A stretch of DNA of 47,990 bases, from assembly GCA_016218705.1 (NCBI GenBank), contig JACRDC010000021.1, positions 1-47,990 on the forward strand, written 5' to 3'. Origin of the DNA: Desulfarculus sp. Its GTDB lineage: Bacteria; Desulfobacterota; Desulfarculia; Desulfarculales; Desulfarculaceae. The position numbers and the translations under genes are program-made. Below the pieces are notes generated by a model, which was not told the DNA's origin, searched no databases, and worked only from the letters and a program-made list of their open reading frames with translations. Within the stretch, counting starts at the first letter, position 1. Each line of letters begins with the position of its first letter. This document shows, one piece after another, positions 30,324 through 37,102 of this stretch.

Positions 30324-30635
30324 ATGGACCCAGGGGACAACCAGCCCGCCCCCCGTATCCTGAGCAGCCGCCTGCTGACGGCGGTCTGGGCGGCCCTGGC
30401 CTGCCTGACCGGCCTGACCATGCTGCTGGCCAGCATTGACCTGGGTTTCTACAACGTCCTGGCCGCCCTGGCCATCGCCACGGCCAAGGCCCTGCTGGTC
30501 ATCGCCTTCTTCATGCACCTGAAATACGAAGGGCGTCTGCTGAAGGGGCTTTTGTTCCTGGCCTTCGTGCTGCTGGCCATCTTCATCGGCCTGACCTTCC
30601 TGGACCTGGCCTTCCGCGCGCCGGGGCAGTCATGA
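30324..30635 (+). CDS. ctaF: Cytochrome c oxidase subunit IV (prokaryotic type)
   Basis: 103 residues with three hydrophobic segments. The block NVLAALAIATAKALLVIAFFMHLKYEGR is diagnostic for the COX4_pro/CyoD-like family (A.a.K..lV..fFMHl). It is a small accessory membrane subunit of the oxidase. GGAGG lies 8 bases before the ATG, 21 bases after ctaE. Its stop overlaps the ctaC start as ATGA. Confidence 0.9.
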   Translation: MDPGDNQPAPRILSSRLLTAVWAALACLTGLTMLLASIDLGFYNVLAALAIATAKALLVIAFFMHLKYEGRLLKGLLFLAFVLLAIFIGLTFLDLAFRAPGQS

Positions 30636-31543
30636 CCCCCCAGGCGGTAAACGCGGTGGCCAGCGTGGACCGCGCCTTTTTGTTCATCTTCGGGGTCTCG
30701 GCGGCCATGCTGGTGCTCATCACCCTGGCCACCATCTATTTCGTCATCCGCTACAGCCGCCAGCGCCACCCCGTGCCGGCCGACTTTGACCACAACCTGC
30801 TGGCCGAGATCATCTGGACGGTCATCCCCACCCTGCTGGTGCTAGCCATGTTCTACTACGGCTGGCAGAGCTTCAGCGCCCTGCGCGGCATGCCCGAGGG
30901 GGCCATGGAGGTGAAGGTCTTGGCCCGCCAGTGGTCCTGGTCCTTCACCTACCCCAATGGCCGCCAGAGCCCTGAGCTGTACGTGCCCGTGGGCCAGCCG
31001 GTCAGGCTGGCCATAACCTCCACCGATGTGATCCACGGCTTCTACGTGCCGGCCTTCCGGGTCAAGATTGACGCCGTGCCGGGCATGACCACCCAGGCCT
31101 GGCTGCGGGCCGACCAGCCTGGCGACTACGACATATACTGCTCGGTGTACTGCGGCCTGGAGCACGCCAGGATGCTCTCGCGGGTGCGCGCCGTCAGTCC
31201 CCAGGAGTTCGAGCGCTGGCTGGTCCAGGCCCCGGACCAGGATGGAGAGGCCATCGCCCGGCGGGAGGGCTGTCTGGCCTGCCACTCCACGGACGGCAGC
31301 ATCCTGGTGGGTCCCAGCTTCAAGGGCCTCTTCGGACACCAGACCACGGTGCTGGACCAGGGCCGGCCGGTACAGGTCATGGTGGACGCCGAATTCGTCC
31401 GGCAGGTGCTGGCCGACCCTTCCCGCCGCCCCACCCAGGGCTTCCCGCCGGTGATGCCGGCTTATCCCCATATCACCCCGGAGCAGACCGCCGCCCTGGT
31501 GGAATACCTCAAGGCCCTGGGCCAAGAGGAGCACCAACATTGA
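30632..31543 (+). CDS. ctaC: Cytochrome c oxidase subunit II with fused cytochrome c (caa3 type)
   Basis: 303 residues. Two membrane helices (about 15-40 and 55-78) are followed by the CuA cupredoxin domain, with His135, Cys170, Cys174, His178 and Met181 as ligands (C-SVY-C-GLE-H-AR-M). The C-terminal cytochrome c domain has heme motif C214-LA-CH and candidate axial Met275 (PPVMPAYPH). The fused heme domain marks a caa3 oxidase that accepts electrons from a small cytochrome c such as the one encoded at 26950. There is no cleavable signal; the first helix acts as anchor. Confidence 0.96.
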   Translation: MTPQAVNAVASVDRAFLFIFGVSAAMLVLITLATIYFVIRYSRQRHPVPADFDHNLLAEIIWTVIPTLLVLAMFYYGWQSFSALRGMPEGAMEVKVLARQWSWSFTYPNGRQSPELYVPVGQPVRLAITSTDVIHGFYVPAFRVKIDAVPGMTTQAWLRADQPGDYDIYCSVYCGLEHARMLSRVRAVSPQEFERWLVQAPDQDGEAIARREGCLACHSTDGSILVGPSFKGLFGHQTTVLDQGRPVQVMVDAEFVRQVLADPSRRPTQGFPPVMPAYPHITPEQTAALVEYLKALGQEEHQH

Positions 31544-32382
31544 TCGCCGACCTGGCCAGGCTGACGCGGGCGCGGCTGGGGCTCATGGCCGCCGCCGGGG
31601 CCATGGCCGGTTACCTGCTCTGGCGGCCTCGGCCCAGCCTAGGCCTGCTGCTTACGGCGCTGGGGGCCTGGCTGCTGGCCGCGGGCTGCTCGGCCCTCAA
31701 CCAGACGCAGGAGCGCCGCCGGGACGGGGTCATGGCGCGCACCCGCCAACGGCCCCTGCCGGCTGGCCGCCTGGGCCTGGGTCCGGCCCTGGCCCTGGCC
31801 CTGGCCTGCCTGGCCCTGGCCCTGTCCCTGCTCTGGGCCGTGGGCGGGGTAGGGACGTCGCTGCTGGGCCTGGCGGTGGTGGCCCTCTACAATGGCCTTT
31901 ACACCCCCCTCAAGGGCCGTACGCCCTTTGCCCTGCTGCTGGGGGCCGTGGCAGGGGCCTTGCCGCCACTGTTGGGTTGGCTGGCCGCCGGCGGGCCGCT
32001 CCTGGGCCATCGCGCGCTCCTGGTGGCCGGGGTATTCTACTGCTGGCAGGTGCCCCACTTCGCCCTACTGGCCAGACTGCGCGCCGACGACTACCAGGCC
32101 GCCGGCCTGCCCCTGGCGGGCCTGGCGCTAAGCGGGGGCTGGGGACGCTGGCCGCTGTTGGTCTGGCTGATGGCCTACGGCACGGCCCTGGCCCTGGTGC
32201 CGGCCCTGGGCCTGGTGGCCACGCCGGCGGCCAAGATATGCCTGGCCACCCTGGCCCTGGGCCTGGGGCTGGGCGGGGCCTGGGCCTTGCGCCGGGAGCG
32301 GCTGGGGCTGTGCCTGGTCAACACCTCCCTGGCCCTGTTCCTGGCCTGCCTCATGGCCGACGCCCTCTGGCGGGGGATTTGA
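31540..32382 (+). CDS. ctaB: Heme O synthase (protoheme IX farnesyltransferase)
   Basis: 280 residues, about eight membrane helices. The UbiA-family prenyl-diphosphate motif is N-x3-E-x3-D (NQTQERRRDGVMARTRQRPL), typical of CtaB/CyoE. The second signature is YNGLYTPLKGRTPF. It farnesylates heme B to heme O for the a-type oxidase. The start is a TTG that overlaps the ctaC stop (TTGA), with AGAGGAG upstream. It ends the operon. Heme A synthase (ctaA) is not in the window. Confidence 0.93.
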   Translation: MIADLARLTRARLGLMAAAGAMAGYLLWRPRPSLGLLLTALGAWLLAAGCSALNQTQERRRDGVMARTRQRPLPAGRLGLGPALALALACLALALSLLWAVGGVGTSLLGLAVVALYNGLYTPLKGRTPFALLLGAVAGALPPLLGWLAAGGPLLGHRALLVAGVFYCWQVPHFALLARLRADDYQAAGLPLAGLALSGGWGRWPLLVWLMAYGTALALVPALGLVATPAAKICLATLALGLGLGGAWALRRERLGLCLVNTSLALFLACLMADALWRGI

Positions 32383-33121: not shown

Positions 33122-34120
33122 TTAACCCACCGAACCCTTGCCGTGGCGCTTGACGCTGAACATGGCCTGGTCGGCCAGGGCCAAGAGCCCGCGCAGGTCA
33201 GAGGCGTCCTGGGGAAAGGCCGCCACCCCCAGGCTGGCTTGCAAACTCACTTCCAGGCCTCGGTTGACCAGGTAGGCGGTGGCGCACAGGCATTGATTGA
33301 TCTCGCGGGCCTTGTCCAGGGCCTGCTGCCGGCTGGCCCCGGGCAACACCACCACGAACTCGTCGCCGCCATAGCTGACTCCGTAGGCCGGCTCGGCCAG
33401 ACAACCGCGGATGGTCTGGGCCACCTCCTGCAAGACCTGGCTGCCCATGAGGTGGCCGTGGGTGTCCACCACCCGCTTGAAGTCGTCCAGGTCCAGAAAT
33501 ATCAGGGCAAAGGGCCGGCCGGCGGACACCAGCTCCTGCAGGGATTGATACATGTGGCGGGTGTTGTATAGGCCCGTGAGGTCGTCGTGGATGGACAGGT
33601 CGTGGATGCGCTGATAGCGCCTGGCGTTCTCGGCGGCGATGGCCACGAAGTCGGCCACGGTGTTCAGAAGCTCCTTGACCGCCTCGTCCATGCGGTGGGG
33701 ATTGACCACCTCGATGGCCCCCAGGGCCTTGCCCGCGAAGACCAGCGGAGCGCACATGATGGATTGGGTGCGAAAACCCGCCATCTGGTCCACCTGGGGG
33801 AAGAAGCACTGGCAACGGCTCACGTCCTGCACCACCAGGGTCTTCTGTTGCAGCACCGCCTGTCCGGCCACGCCCTGGCCCACCTCCAGGCGAATGTCCT
33901 TGACCAGCTCCCGGTCCAGGCCCACGGTCACCTCGAAGCGCAACTGGTTGGTCTGGTCGTCAAGAAGCAGCAGCGACCAGTTGTCGGCCGGCAAAAGGGC
34001 CGAGACCCTGTCCAAGAGGGCCGCCAACAGGCGCGGCGGCTCCAGTTGGGAGGTGAGTGCCTTGCCCAGCTCCAGGCAGGCCCAAAGCTCTTTTCTTGAC
34101 AACTGCTCCGAGGATGTCAT
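33122..34120 (-). CDS. GAF-GGDEF diguanylate cyclase
   Basis: 332 residues. GAF domain at about 25-165 (AGFRTQSIMCAPLVFAGKALGAIEVVN), then a GGDEF domain (about 178-332). The linker DDLTGLYN, metal Asp210 and the active-site GGDEF (251-255) are intact, so c-di-GMP synthesis is likely. The inhibitory RxxD motif expected five residues before GGDEF is absent (AEPA), so product feedback is not expected. No membrane segment; cytoplasmic. I chose the ATG at 34120 because AAGGAG stands 7 bases before it. The upstream ATG at 34138 has no such site. Confidence 0.92.
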   Translation of the reverse strand: MTSSEQLSRKELWACLELGKALTSQLEPPRLLAALLDRVSALLPADNWSLLLLDDQTNQLRFEVTVGLDRELVKDIRLEVGQGVAGQAVLQQKTLVVQDVSRCQCFFPQVDQMAGFRTQSIMCAPLVFAGKALGAIEVVNPHRMDEAVKELLNTVADFVAIAAENARRYQRIHDLSIHDDLTGLYNTRHMYQSLQELVSAGRPFALIFLDLDDFKRVVDTHGHLMGSQVLQEVAQTIRGCLAEPAYGVSYGGDEFVVVLPGASRQQALDKAREINQCLCATAYLVNRGLEVSLQASLGVAAFPQDASDLRGLLALADQAMFSVKRHGKGSVG

Positions 34121-34153
34121 TGCCCGCTCCTTGCCCAACCTTAATGGGCAAAA

Positions 34154-34238
34154 GGCGGGCGGGGATAAACCCCGCCCCTACGAAAACCGAAACAACAACC
34201 AGCATTTTCTTTGTAGGGGATGGGTTAATCCCCGCCCG
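34154..34238. repeat. Paired palindromic repeat (two inverted copies)
   Basis: Copy 1 (34157-34177) is GGGCGGGG-ATAAA-CCCCGCCC. Copy 2 (34213-34237) is an inverted, slightly diverged version: GTAGGGG..., then an ATCCCCGCCC arm. The two face each other and can form one long hairpin as well as two short ones. A third copy stands at 42993. It lies between the acyl-CoA synthetase-like gene and the diguanylate cyclase. It looks like a REP or MITE-type dispersed element. Confidence 0.7.
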
Positions 34239-34310
34239 TGCATTTCTCAAAATGCGATACGGTTGAAATCCAATCGGTATCAAACATCATCATAGCATGC
34301 TCGCGGAGAA

Positions 34311-36056
34311 TCAAGACGGCTGGGTCACCTCGGAGGTCCAGTCCTCCTGCAAGCTCTCGAAGCCGCCCACGGGCAGGCCCAGCTCGCGGGCCTTGAGCAC
34401 CCGCCGCAGGAGCCGGCGATTGGCGTTGCGCGGCAGCTCGGGCAGGAACTCCACCTCGCTCAAGGGCAGGTCCGGGGATATCTCGGCCCGGGCCAGGGCC
34501 TTGAGCACCTCCTTGAGTTCCCACACGCCCTTGTGCCCCTGGCGCAGCACCACGAAGGCCTTGAACCAGGGCGCGCCCTCGGTGGGGGGCAGGATCACCG
34601 CGCACTCGGCCACTCCGGGGTGGTGGCTAAGGGCGCGCTCCACCTCGTAGGGACCCACCAAGCGGCCACGCACCCGCAGGATGTCGTCCTTGCGGCCATG
34701 CAGGTAGTAATAGCCGTCCTCGTCGGTGGTGGCCAGGTCGCCACTCAGGTACCAGCCCTCGCGGAAGAAGCCCTCCTCGCGGCCGGCCTCGCCCCACAGA
34801 CCCGAGAACATGGCCGGCCAGCCGGGCTGGAAGGCCAACTCACCCAGGGTCAAGAGGGGCTGGCTCTGGCCCTGACCATCCACCACCGCCGCCTGGATGC
34901 CCGGCACCGGCAGCCCGGCCGAGCCCAGCTTGATGTCGGTGCCGGGGAAGTGGGCCAGGGCGATCATGCCCATCTCGGCGCTCCACCAGGTATCGTGGAT
35001 GTGGCGGTTGAAGTTGTTGCGGAACCAGAAGAAGTTCTTGGGCGGCAGGGACCGGCCCACGGTGGCCACGTGCCCCAGGCCGGTGAGATTGTAGCGCTTG
35101 ACCAGGTCGTCGCCGGCCTGCTTGAGCAACTCGATCACTCCGGGGCGGGTGTACCAGGTGGTGGGGCGGTGGCGCTCCAGGGCGCGGTACCAGGCGGCTG
35201 GGCTGAACTCATCGCCGATCAAGAGCACCGCCGAGCCGCAGAGCCAGGGCGCCAGCCCGCCGTAGACCGTGGAGGTAACCCAGCCGGGCAGGCCGTCGGT
35301 CCAGCACAGGCTGCCCGGCCCCAGGTCCAGCACGTAGCGGCCGGTCATCATCAGGCCCACCATGCCGCCGTGCACGTGCACGGCCCCCCTGGGCGGGCCG
35401 TCGCCGCCGGAGGTGAAGACCAGGTACAGGGGATGGCTGGCCCCCACCCAGTGGGTGGCGAACTCCGTGGGCTGGGCCGGCAGCAGCCGGGTGGCCAGAT
35501 CCTCCCGGTGGTGCAGGCCGGGCAACTTGCCCTCGGTGAGTAAGAGTACCGCCTCGTAGGGCAGGGCCTCGCCCGGCAGCCGCCGGGCCAGCCAGGGGGT
35601 GGTCACCAGGACCTTGGGGTCCACCCGGGCCATGAGGCGGTAAAGCTCGTGGGGCGTGAGGTCGGGCGGCAGGGCGCAGAAGACGGCCCCCAGGCGGGCG
35701 GCGGCCAGCACCGCCAGGTGCAGTTCAGGACGCGGAGGCATGAGCACGGCCAGGCGGTCGCCGGCGGTGAGGCCCAGGCCGGCCAGCATGTTGGCCCACT
35801 GGCACGACAGCTCCTTGACCTGCCGGAAGGTGTAGGAGCTGACCTCGCCGTGGCGCTCGTAGATCAGGGCGGTCTGGTCGGGCATCTGGCCGGGTTCGGC
35901 CCAGCGGTCTATGGCCTCCTGCACCAGGTTGTATTGGCCGGTGTGCTGCCAGGTGAACTCCTGGAAGAGCTTCTCCCAGCGAAAATTGATGTAGGCCTCC
36001 TGATAGGAGCCCAGGCGGGAGGTGCGCTCCTCGGCGCGAATGCGGGTGCGTATCAC
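34311..36056 (-). CDS. Acetyl-CoA-synthetase-like AMP-forming protein lacking the catalytic lysine
   Basis: 581 residues of the ANL (AMP-binding) superfamily, closest in style to acetyl-CoA synthetase: DTWWSAEMGM (A5) and GWYLSGDLATTDEDGYYYLHGRKDDIL (A7/A8). Two core motifs are changed. The P-loop motif, normally SGSTGKPKG, is SGGDGPPRG. The A10 motif, normally LPKTRSGK, is LPRNANRR with Arg at about 548 in place of the essential, acetylatable lysine. Adenylation may therefore be weak or lost. I chose the GTG at 36056: it overlaps the deacetylase stop (GTGA) and has GGGAGG 6 bases upstream. An ATG at 36074 is the alternative. It is coupled to an HDAC-family gene. A structural or thioesterification-only role is possible. 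Confidence 0.85.
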   Translation of the reverse strand: MIRTRIRAEERTSRLGSYQEAYINFRWEKLFQEFTWQHTGQYNLVQEAIDRWAEPGQMPDQTALIYERHGEVSSYTFRQVKELSCQWANMLAGLGLTAGDRLAVLMPPRPELHLAVLAAARLGAVFCALPPDLTPHELYRLMARVDPKVLVTTPWLARRLPGEALPYEAVLLLTEGKLPGLHHREDLATRLLPAQPTEFATHWVGASHPLYLVFTSGGDGPPRGAVHVHGGMVGLMMTGRYVLDLGPGSLCWTDGLPGWVTSTVYGGLAPWLCGSAVLLIGDEFSPAAWYRALERHRPTTWYTRPGVIELLKQAGDDLVKRYNLTGLGHVATVGRSLPPKNFFWFRNNFNRHIHDTWWSAEMGMIALAHFPGTDIKLGSAGLPVPGIQAAVVDGQGQSQPLLTLGELAFQPGWPAMFSGLWGEAGREEGFFREGWYLSGDLATTDEDGYYYLHGRKDDILRVRGRLVGPYEVERALSHHPGVAECAVILPPTEGAPWFKAFVVLRQGHKGVWELKEVLKALARAEISPDLPLSEVEFLPELPRNANRRLLRRVLKARELGLPVGGFESLQEDWTSEVTQPS

Positions 36057-37102
36057 ATCATGCCTCCCATCCACACGCCGTAGGGACCGTGGATATGGCG
36101 GGCCTTGTTGGCCAGGGCCCGGCCCCGGAAGCTGTCGGCCTGGGCCAGGATGTCCTCGCCATAACCTGGGTTGAGCAGCGCCAGCAGGCTCTGGCGCACC
36201 GAGGACGTGAGCGCCTCGTGGCTGTAACCGCCCTCCAGGGCCAGCAAGAGCGGTATGCCCTTGGCTGGCCCCAGGCGGCGCACCAGGCTTCCTAAGCCGG
36301 CAAAGGCCCTCTCGGTGAGCTGGGTGTTGCCCAGGGGGTCGTCCTTGTGGGCATCATAGCCGGCGGCCACCATTATCAGTTGCGGATCATAGCCCTCCAC
36401 CACCTGGGGCAGTATCTCGCGGTAGAGGTGCAGCACGTCGTCGTCGCCGGCGTCGCCGGGCAGGCACAGGTTCAGCGTGTAGCCCGCGCCGCCGCCCAGG
36501 CCCACCTCCTCCCAGTCGCCGCTGTGGGGGTAGGCCTGGTAGTAGTGTGAGGAAAGGTAGAAGACCTCCCGCTCGCGGTAGAAGGCCTCCTGAATGCCGT
36601 TGCCGTGGTGCACGTCCCAGTCAATGATGAGGATGCGCTTCAGCCCAAAGGCCCGCCGCGCCCAGCGGGCGGTGATGGCCAGGTTGTTGAAGATGCAGAA
36701 GCCGCCGGCCTGGCCGGAGAGGGCATGGTGCCCGGGCGGGCGCACCAGGGCCAAGCACATGGCGCACTGGCCGGCCATGAGCGCCTCCAGGGCCTTGAGG
36801 CAGCCGCCCGCGGCCAGCCAGGCGGCCTGGCAGGAATGAGCGCTGGAGGGGGTGTCGGAGGTGAGGTTGGTGAAGGCCCGCCGGGCCGTGGAGAGCACCA
36901 ACTGCACATAGGCCGGCGAGTGCACCAGCTCGATCTGCTCCAGGCTGGCGGGCGTGGGCGCCAGGGCCAAGAACCGGCCGCCGAACTCCTGGTCCAGCAT
37001 CTGGTACAGGCTGGTCAGGCGTCCCGGGTCCTCGGGATGGCCCAGGCCGGTCTTGTGCTCCAGATATTCGGGGTCACGCACGATGCCCAGACTTAGGTCC
37101 AT
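36053..37102 (-). CDS. HDAC-family (AcuC-like) zinc deacetylase
   Basis: 349 residues of the arginase/deacetylase fold. Active-site residues are all seen: tandem His125-His126 (RPPGHHA), zinc ligands Asp163 and His165 (DWDVHHGNG), Asp250 (GYDAHKDDP) and Tyr293 (LEGGYS). Family members remove acetyl groups from lysines of acetyl-CoA synthetase (AcuC) or from polyamines and other small molecules. The neighbour's stop/start overlap suggests a shared function. I chose the ATG at 37102, preceded by AGGGGGGG; the extension to 37207 is unconserved. The exact substrate is unknown. Confidence 0.92.

Follow-up and report, generated by a model that had tools for sequence, protein, structure and literature searches.

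The window analyzed here is a 47,990-nucleotide stretch of DNA from Desulfarculus sp., which makes up one contig (C107) of a 4.2 Mb genome that is 99% complete. Two genes on its minus strand form an overlapping pair. The first (36053..37102), with an ATG at 37102 and a TGA stop codon at 36055-36053, encodes a 349-residue Zn-dependent deacetylase (HDAC) of cluster 1/class II (HdaH/HDAC6-like), the active site of which is intact, as judged by its PF00850 match (283.5 bits), its motifs and a structural model. The second (34311..36056) encodes an AcsA-like protein of ~581 residues, here termed ACS2; it starts with a GTG codon at 36056-36054, with an alternative GTG at 36074, and its stop codon occupies 34313-34311. 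As read from the sequence, the ACS2 start lies on the HDAC stop in a GTGA overlap (36053..36056, minus strand). The original prediction for this DNA, a Zn deacetylase gene overlapping an Acs-like gene by GTGA, is thus borne out by both open reading frames and by the domain matches, which for ACS2 are PF00501 (184.5 bits) and PF13193 (47.3 bits). ACS2 residues are numbered according to the translation P0001 (window:34314-36059, minus strand), in which residue 2 corresponds to the start codon.

The proteins encoded by the pair

The window HDAC contains both an RPPGHH and an EGGY motif. RPPXHH and XGGY are the hallmark of cluster 1 (HdaH/class II) deacetylases, whereas AcuC belongs to cluster 2c and harbors XGGLHH instead (PMC11532494). 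The nearest solved sequences are HDAC6 catalytic domains, the nearest folds to the HDAC model are Kdac1 and HDAC6 (Z of 39), and the arginase-deacetylase fold and an Asp-His-Asp zinc site are both present, all of which place the protein in cluster 1/class II. Assignment to AcuC (cluster 2c) was rejected because RPPGHH stands in place of XGGLHH; the label "AcuC-type" that was first attached to this protein is therefore wrong as a family name, and the enzyme may work like AcuC yet is not an AcuC. The suggestion that the pair acts on another acyl substrate is also unlikely because of the RPP motif, as the RPPGHH/EGGY foot pocket is described as limiting the enzyme to acetyl groups (PMC11532494). 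The window HDAC shares with HdaH, Kdac1 and HDAC6 the fold, both motifs and the catalytic and zinc residues, but differs from the cluster 1 enzymes in being encoded in an operon with an Acs-like predicted pseudoenzyme; the cluster 1b deacetylases that have been studied left AcsA K549ac undeacetylated (PMC11532494).

ACS2 resembles AcsA (PRK04319/NF003313) in fold, length and sequence, with 36% identity to the B. subtilis protein (9g79) over the structurally aligned part. Its AlphaFold model has a mean pLDDT of 82, lowest at the P-loop (residues 217-222) and the termini, and matches 9g79 with a Z of 53.5 and an rmsd of 1.7 over 447 residues; model and domain matches alike reveal the N- and C-terminal domains of the ANL family. 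However, ACS2 scores 501 bits against its best NCBIfam model, NF003313 acetate--CoA ligase (AcsA), under the 729-bit cut-off, whereas AcsA relatives from Desulfobacterota that are not linked to an HDAC gene (unlinked AcsA) clear it with 882 and 905 bits. The C-terminal alignment of ACS2 with 9g79 and S. enterica Acs (1pg3) is ungapped and confirms the Arg that had been noted at the A10 catalytic and acetylatable lysine (K609 of S. enterica Acs, K549 of B. subtilis AcsA): Arg549 (34413..34415, minus strand) occupies this position and Arg548 falls on the Gly that precedes it. A register shift that would bring a nearby lysine into the A10 site was considered and rejected, since the alignment contains no gap and no lysine from nearby falls on the site. 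The broken P-loop was also evident in the alignment with 1pg3 and 9g79, with TSGGDGPPRG (35385..35414, minus strand) against the canonical TSGSTGKPKG, in departure from the AcsA pattern TSG(S/T)TGxPKG.

The Acs positions E388, P389, T416, T418 and S523 are substituted as well in the window protein, while G387, W413, W414, E417, D500, R515 and G524 are retained. Asp441 (34737..34739, minus strand) corresponds to D500 and Arg456 (34692..34694, minus strand) to R515, which from Acs structures we take to be a ribose contact and a nucleotide contact, respectively; W413 and W414 are presumably the tryptophans of the acetate pocket, and G524 lies near the CoA tunnel. Retention of D500 and R515 may reflect structure rather than ligand binding. 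R526 was dropped as a marker of ATP binding because unlinked, intact AcsA proteins vary there too. With the A10 and P-loop lysines both gone and the model score under the cut-off, the window ACS2 is predicted to be a non-ligase pseudoenzyme.

Distribution of the HDAC–ACS2 pair

In Desulfobacterota the two genes are neighbors or share an operon in 39 genomes, which represent 11 families: 29 of 297 genomes in an even draw of the phylum, in which the pair shares an operon, and ten further relatives. MAGs are among the genomes analyzed. For one more ACS2, the fortieth (G020), the contig ends before the upstream side is reached; two same-strand genes separate HDAC from ACS2 in G237, and in G223 and G238 the HDAC gene is cut by the contig end. 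Among relatives with a strong ACS2 match and a contig covering both sides, HDAC adjoins ACS2 in nearly all; G016 and G020 each contain a second, weaker match, which is an ordinary AcsA. Many of the homologous pairs have short junctions, of -8 to +15 nt. Within the same genus, the A10 Arg and the degenerate P-loop recur in G003 (ACS2 96% identical) and G002 (73%). A collection-wide search with ACS2 alone, covering named genomes, returned one close relative, from a Desulfarculus sp. MAG (96% identical); three Bacteroidota AcsA proteins from that search had no HDAC in the flanks examined. In the open-access literature we found no degenerate Acs paired with a deacetylase, although one may be described elsewhere.

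Deacetylases without ACS2 are common: 150 of the 297 genomes contain a cluster-1-like deacetylase match at the threshold used. In the HDAC tree the linked deacetylases group together (SH-aLRT 91), with the same three subgroups as ACS2. RPPGHH is present in 37/37 and LEGGY in 36/37 of them, and all 37 keep the six catalytic/zinc residues. In G003 (L053, G003:C243, 1152-2113), an internal deletion and a frameshift remove the DWDVHH zinc site of the HDAC while ACS2 is intact, which may be an assembly fault of the MAG or a real loss. In one family (f16; L103-L109, e.g. L105 6710-7120), a DUF3303 protein of ~100 residues is encoded between HDAC and ACS2; such a protein also precedes a lysine-bearing, HDAC-free AcsA (L132).

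Catalytic residues and selection in linked ACS2

The A10 lysine is kept in 12/37 linked ACS2 proteins, in 21/21 unlinked AcsA and in 14/14 canonical Acs, and the second P-loop lysine, K272, in 19/39, 21/21 and 14/14, respectively (residue counts treat G020 and G237 as linked and omit G003 as a near duplicate). Both lysines are gone in 15/39 linked proteins, including that of the window, and both are kept in 8/39 (G006, G053, G187, G237, G282, G322, G189 and G020). A single clade (SH-aLRT 97) unites the linked ACS2, 38 in number, and the unlinked AcsA next to it all carry the lysine; the tree requires at least 5 changes at A10 and at least 7 in the P-loop. HDAC linkage and lysine loss are associated (Fisher p of 1e-7, kinship ignored). 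The pairing originated roughly once; the association depends on that origin, and a test of phylogenetically independent pairs on the tree is therefore without power.

The lesions differ between the three ACS2 subgroups. In "clade I" the A10 lysine is lost and the P-loop is largely intact; the second subgroup lacks the P-loop lysine in all members; and the third, to which the family of the window belongs, ranges from intact through doubly lost. In the linked set, D500 is retained in 37/39 proteins, R515 in 39/39, an aromatic residue at W413 in 39/39 and W414 in 38/39. These retained AMP-site and acetate-pocket residues would fit an ACS2 that is still adenylate- or thioester-forming with altered chemistry, for example catalyzing the second half-reaction only (acyl-AMP + CoA) or using another acid, with the A10 lysine and the P-loop dispensable. 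The A10 lysine of Acs serves adenylation, not thioester formation, and the clade I proteins, with the P-loop largely preserved, could be read in the same way. We nevertheless consider such an activity doubtful, as both lysines are absent in the window protein and 14 other linked proteins, G524, near the CoA tunnel, is replaced in 25/39, and the A5 glutamate is replaced in six members of the third subgroup (by Phe or Tyr in four Desulfarculaceae, by Asp in two). Lesions that vary in this manner by lineage fit relaxed constraint better than one new chemistry.

The residue at A10 also bears on whether ACS2 might act as a pseudosubstrate or decoy, its C-terminal loop mimicking the acetylated or deacetylated Acs loop and filling the active site of the deacetylase or of an acetyltransferase. 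Arg, as found in the family of the window, could mimic an unacetylated lysine, and B. subtilis AcsA forms a stable complex with AcuA, into which it inserts the lysine loop of its C-terminal domain (PMC11910552). However, Arg is conserved only within that family and in a few other lineages; T, G, Q, M, A, V and E also occur at this position in the linked set. Since the replacements vary, a fixed lysine mimic is unlikely. Moreover, K549A weakens the AcsA–AcuA complex (PMC11910552), and relaxation relative to unlinked AcsA is strongest in the C-terminal domain of linked ACS2, where the lysine site lies: mean entropy there is 1.69 compared to 0.95, against 1.71 compared to 1.47 for the N-terminal domain, values that are indicative only because the linked set is the more diverse. 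A decoy function hence appears decidedly unlikely. As for the original choice between a pseudoenzyme and a constitutive mimic, the former is favored, as eight different replacements at A10 and the additional loss of the P-loop speak against the latter.

Linked ACS2 evolves with a dN/dS of 0.12-0.37 within Desulfarculaceae, much like HDAC there (0.12-0.34), and of 0.08-0.10 in two further families. Overall, the HDAC values span 0.07-0.34 and lie close to those of ACS2, as do those of canonical Acs in the same species pairs (0.08-0.26); for two unlinked AcsA copies the value is 0.02. No internal stop was present in the aligned ACS2 set, the copies being open through the conserved region. Linked ACS2 is under purifying selection and is not a pseudogene. 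Its dN exceeds that of canonical Acs by a factor of 1.5 to 4 and its motifs have degraded differently by lineage, as might be expected of an ordinary decaying paralog hitch-hiking in an operon. That explanation is nonetheless highly improbable, given the open frames, a dN/dS well under 1, 17 positions newly fixed in linked ACS2 (all in the N-terminal domain) and a pairing kept over 11 families; indeed, the sole clearly broken pair, that of G003, is damaged in HDAC and not in ACS2. Homologous pairs with a normal lysine, which had been proposed as the sign of an isolated decayed gene, do exist (the 12/37 above), but ACS2 is not such a gene, because the losses recur and the gene is under purifying selection. 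At the level of sequence, then, the synteny is conserved, catalytic loss is recurrent only in the HDAC-linked paralog, the HDAC is intact and the paralog is selectively maintained.

Operon context and a possible regulatory role

Canonical Acs with the lysine in place flanks HDAC in 13 loci, and LPKTRSGKIMRR is present in most of them; the one flanking Acs tested scored 992 bits against TIGR02188 (cut-off 725). Five loci contain a GNAT acetyltransferase gene, and in five an acetyl-CoA hydrolase/transferase is encoded as a fusion with a GNAT domain. A system for reversible Acs acetylation would be expected to have these components. The fusion lies in an Acs–HDAC–ACS2 operon in L098-L102 (e.g. 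L100 2459-4396). In the window genome, a 71% identical homolog of the fusion is found on contig C89, and the second, canonical Acs for which a search had been suggested is present on another contig, C76, with the lysine in place and a score of 998 bits; it adjoins genes for a cNMP/CBS/DUF294 protein and an exonuclease-like protein. In five genomes of a sister genus, canonical Acs is located ~27-30 kb from the HDAC–ACS2 pair.

The 13 loci in which canonical Acs shares the operon, together with the eight linked pairs that keep both lysines, might suggest a metabolic coupling in which acetate freed by HDAC is turned back into acetyl-CoA by the synthetase encoded next to it, a function that the window lineage would have lost. 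Some linked ACS2, those with both lysines, may be active enzymes, so that the ancestral pair may have come together for metabolism, for instance to recycle released acetate. As an account of the present pair this coupling is unlikely: lost recycling would not explain why purifying selection preserves a degenerate ACS2 or why its gene stays coupled to that of HDAC, and a second synthetase would be redundant with the canonical Acs already there.

The closest precedent for a non-enzymatic deacetylase partner is AcuB, a nucleotide-binding adaptor whose gene lies upstream of acuC and overlaps it by 4 nt, and which binds and inhibits AcuC in response to Ap4A (PMC13039410); inhibition of AcuC by AcuB in response to AMP has also been described (PMC13121692). 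The Bacillus acuABC-acsA genes resemble the Desulfobacterota loci in bringing together a Zn deacetylase, a GNAT acetyltransferase and Acs/AcsA; the Bacillus AcsA family (PRK04319) is that from which ACS2 descends, and the ATGA overlap of acuB and acuC has its counterpart in the GTGA overlap of HDAC and ACS2. In contrast, the HDAC here is of cluster 1/class II while AcuC is of cluster 2c, the partner gene is a degenerate AcsA paralog with no CBS-ACT AcuB seen at the locus, and the presumed substrate is a canonical Acs of the TIGR02188 type.

Based on this analogy and on the retained AMP-site residues, we infer that ACS2 could be an AcuB-like, nucleotide-responsive binder and modulator of HDAC. 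The window locus would then be a reduced, two-gene form of a Desulfobacterota module for reversible Acs acetylation, the fuller form of which, present in some families, comprises one or more GNAT acetyltransferases, canonical Acs with its regulatory lysine, the class II-type deacetylase and then ACS2. In the family of the window, canonical Acs resides elsewhere in the genome; deacetylase and ACS2 stayed coupled. ACS2, presumably catalytically dead, would no longer make acetyl-CoA, as its adenylation lysine and ATP-phosphate loop are gone, and only the fold and the AMP-site residues are kept; it would bind the deacetylase and tune it through a bound AMP, acetyl-AMP or similar adenylate. Adenylate sensing is a reasonable guess because precisely the AMP-site residues are kept while the ATP-phosphate loop and the catalytic lysine are lost. 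The substrate of the deacetylase would be the acetyl-lysine of canonical Acs, and perhaps of other proteins. That the locus belongs to such a module, in which a degenerate AcsA became a non-enzymatic, probably nucleotide-sensing HDAC partner analogous to AcuB, is the reading that we favor, with even chances of being right.

More tentatively, and with the balance leaning against it, Acs may time and again have turned into a regulatory subunit that senses adenylates for a classical Zn deacetylase, an enzyme-derived analog of AcuB. If so, the acetylation state of Acs, and perhaps of the wider acetylome, would be read by a dead copy of the controlled enzyme. Control of bacterial classical deacetylases is only now emerging, with AcuB the one described case that we found. 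Across the loci, the Acs beside an intact deacetylase grades naturally from intact to fully degenerate, which makes a conversion from enzyme to possible regulator directly testable in a two-gene system. Many "acetate--CoA ligase" annotations in Desulfobacterota probably designate proteins incapable of the reaction.

Several other features of the window were observed. Directly downstream of ACS2 and on its strand, 33122-34138 encodes a GAF + GGDEF-like protein (translation read by eye); such a gene also lies downstream of the pair in G003, and none was seen beside the pair in G002. Just downstream of ACS2 (34150-34245) is the palindromic repeat GGGGATAAACCCCGCCCCTAC(A/G), a REP-like dispersed element: the genome contains 55 exact copies of it, several of which are arranged in inverted pairs ~50 bp apart, and 0 copies of the reversed control. 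Finally, the translations of 30632-32382, read by eye, point to a cytochrome c oxidase subunit II whose C-terminal part is cytochrome c-like; the gene that follows is protohaem IX farnesyltransferase-like. If the organism lives strictly anaerobically, such genes would come as a surprise.
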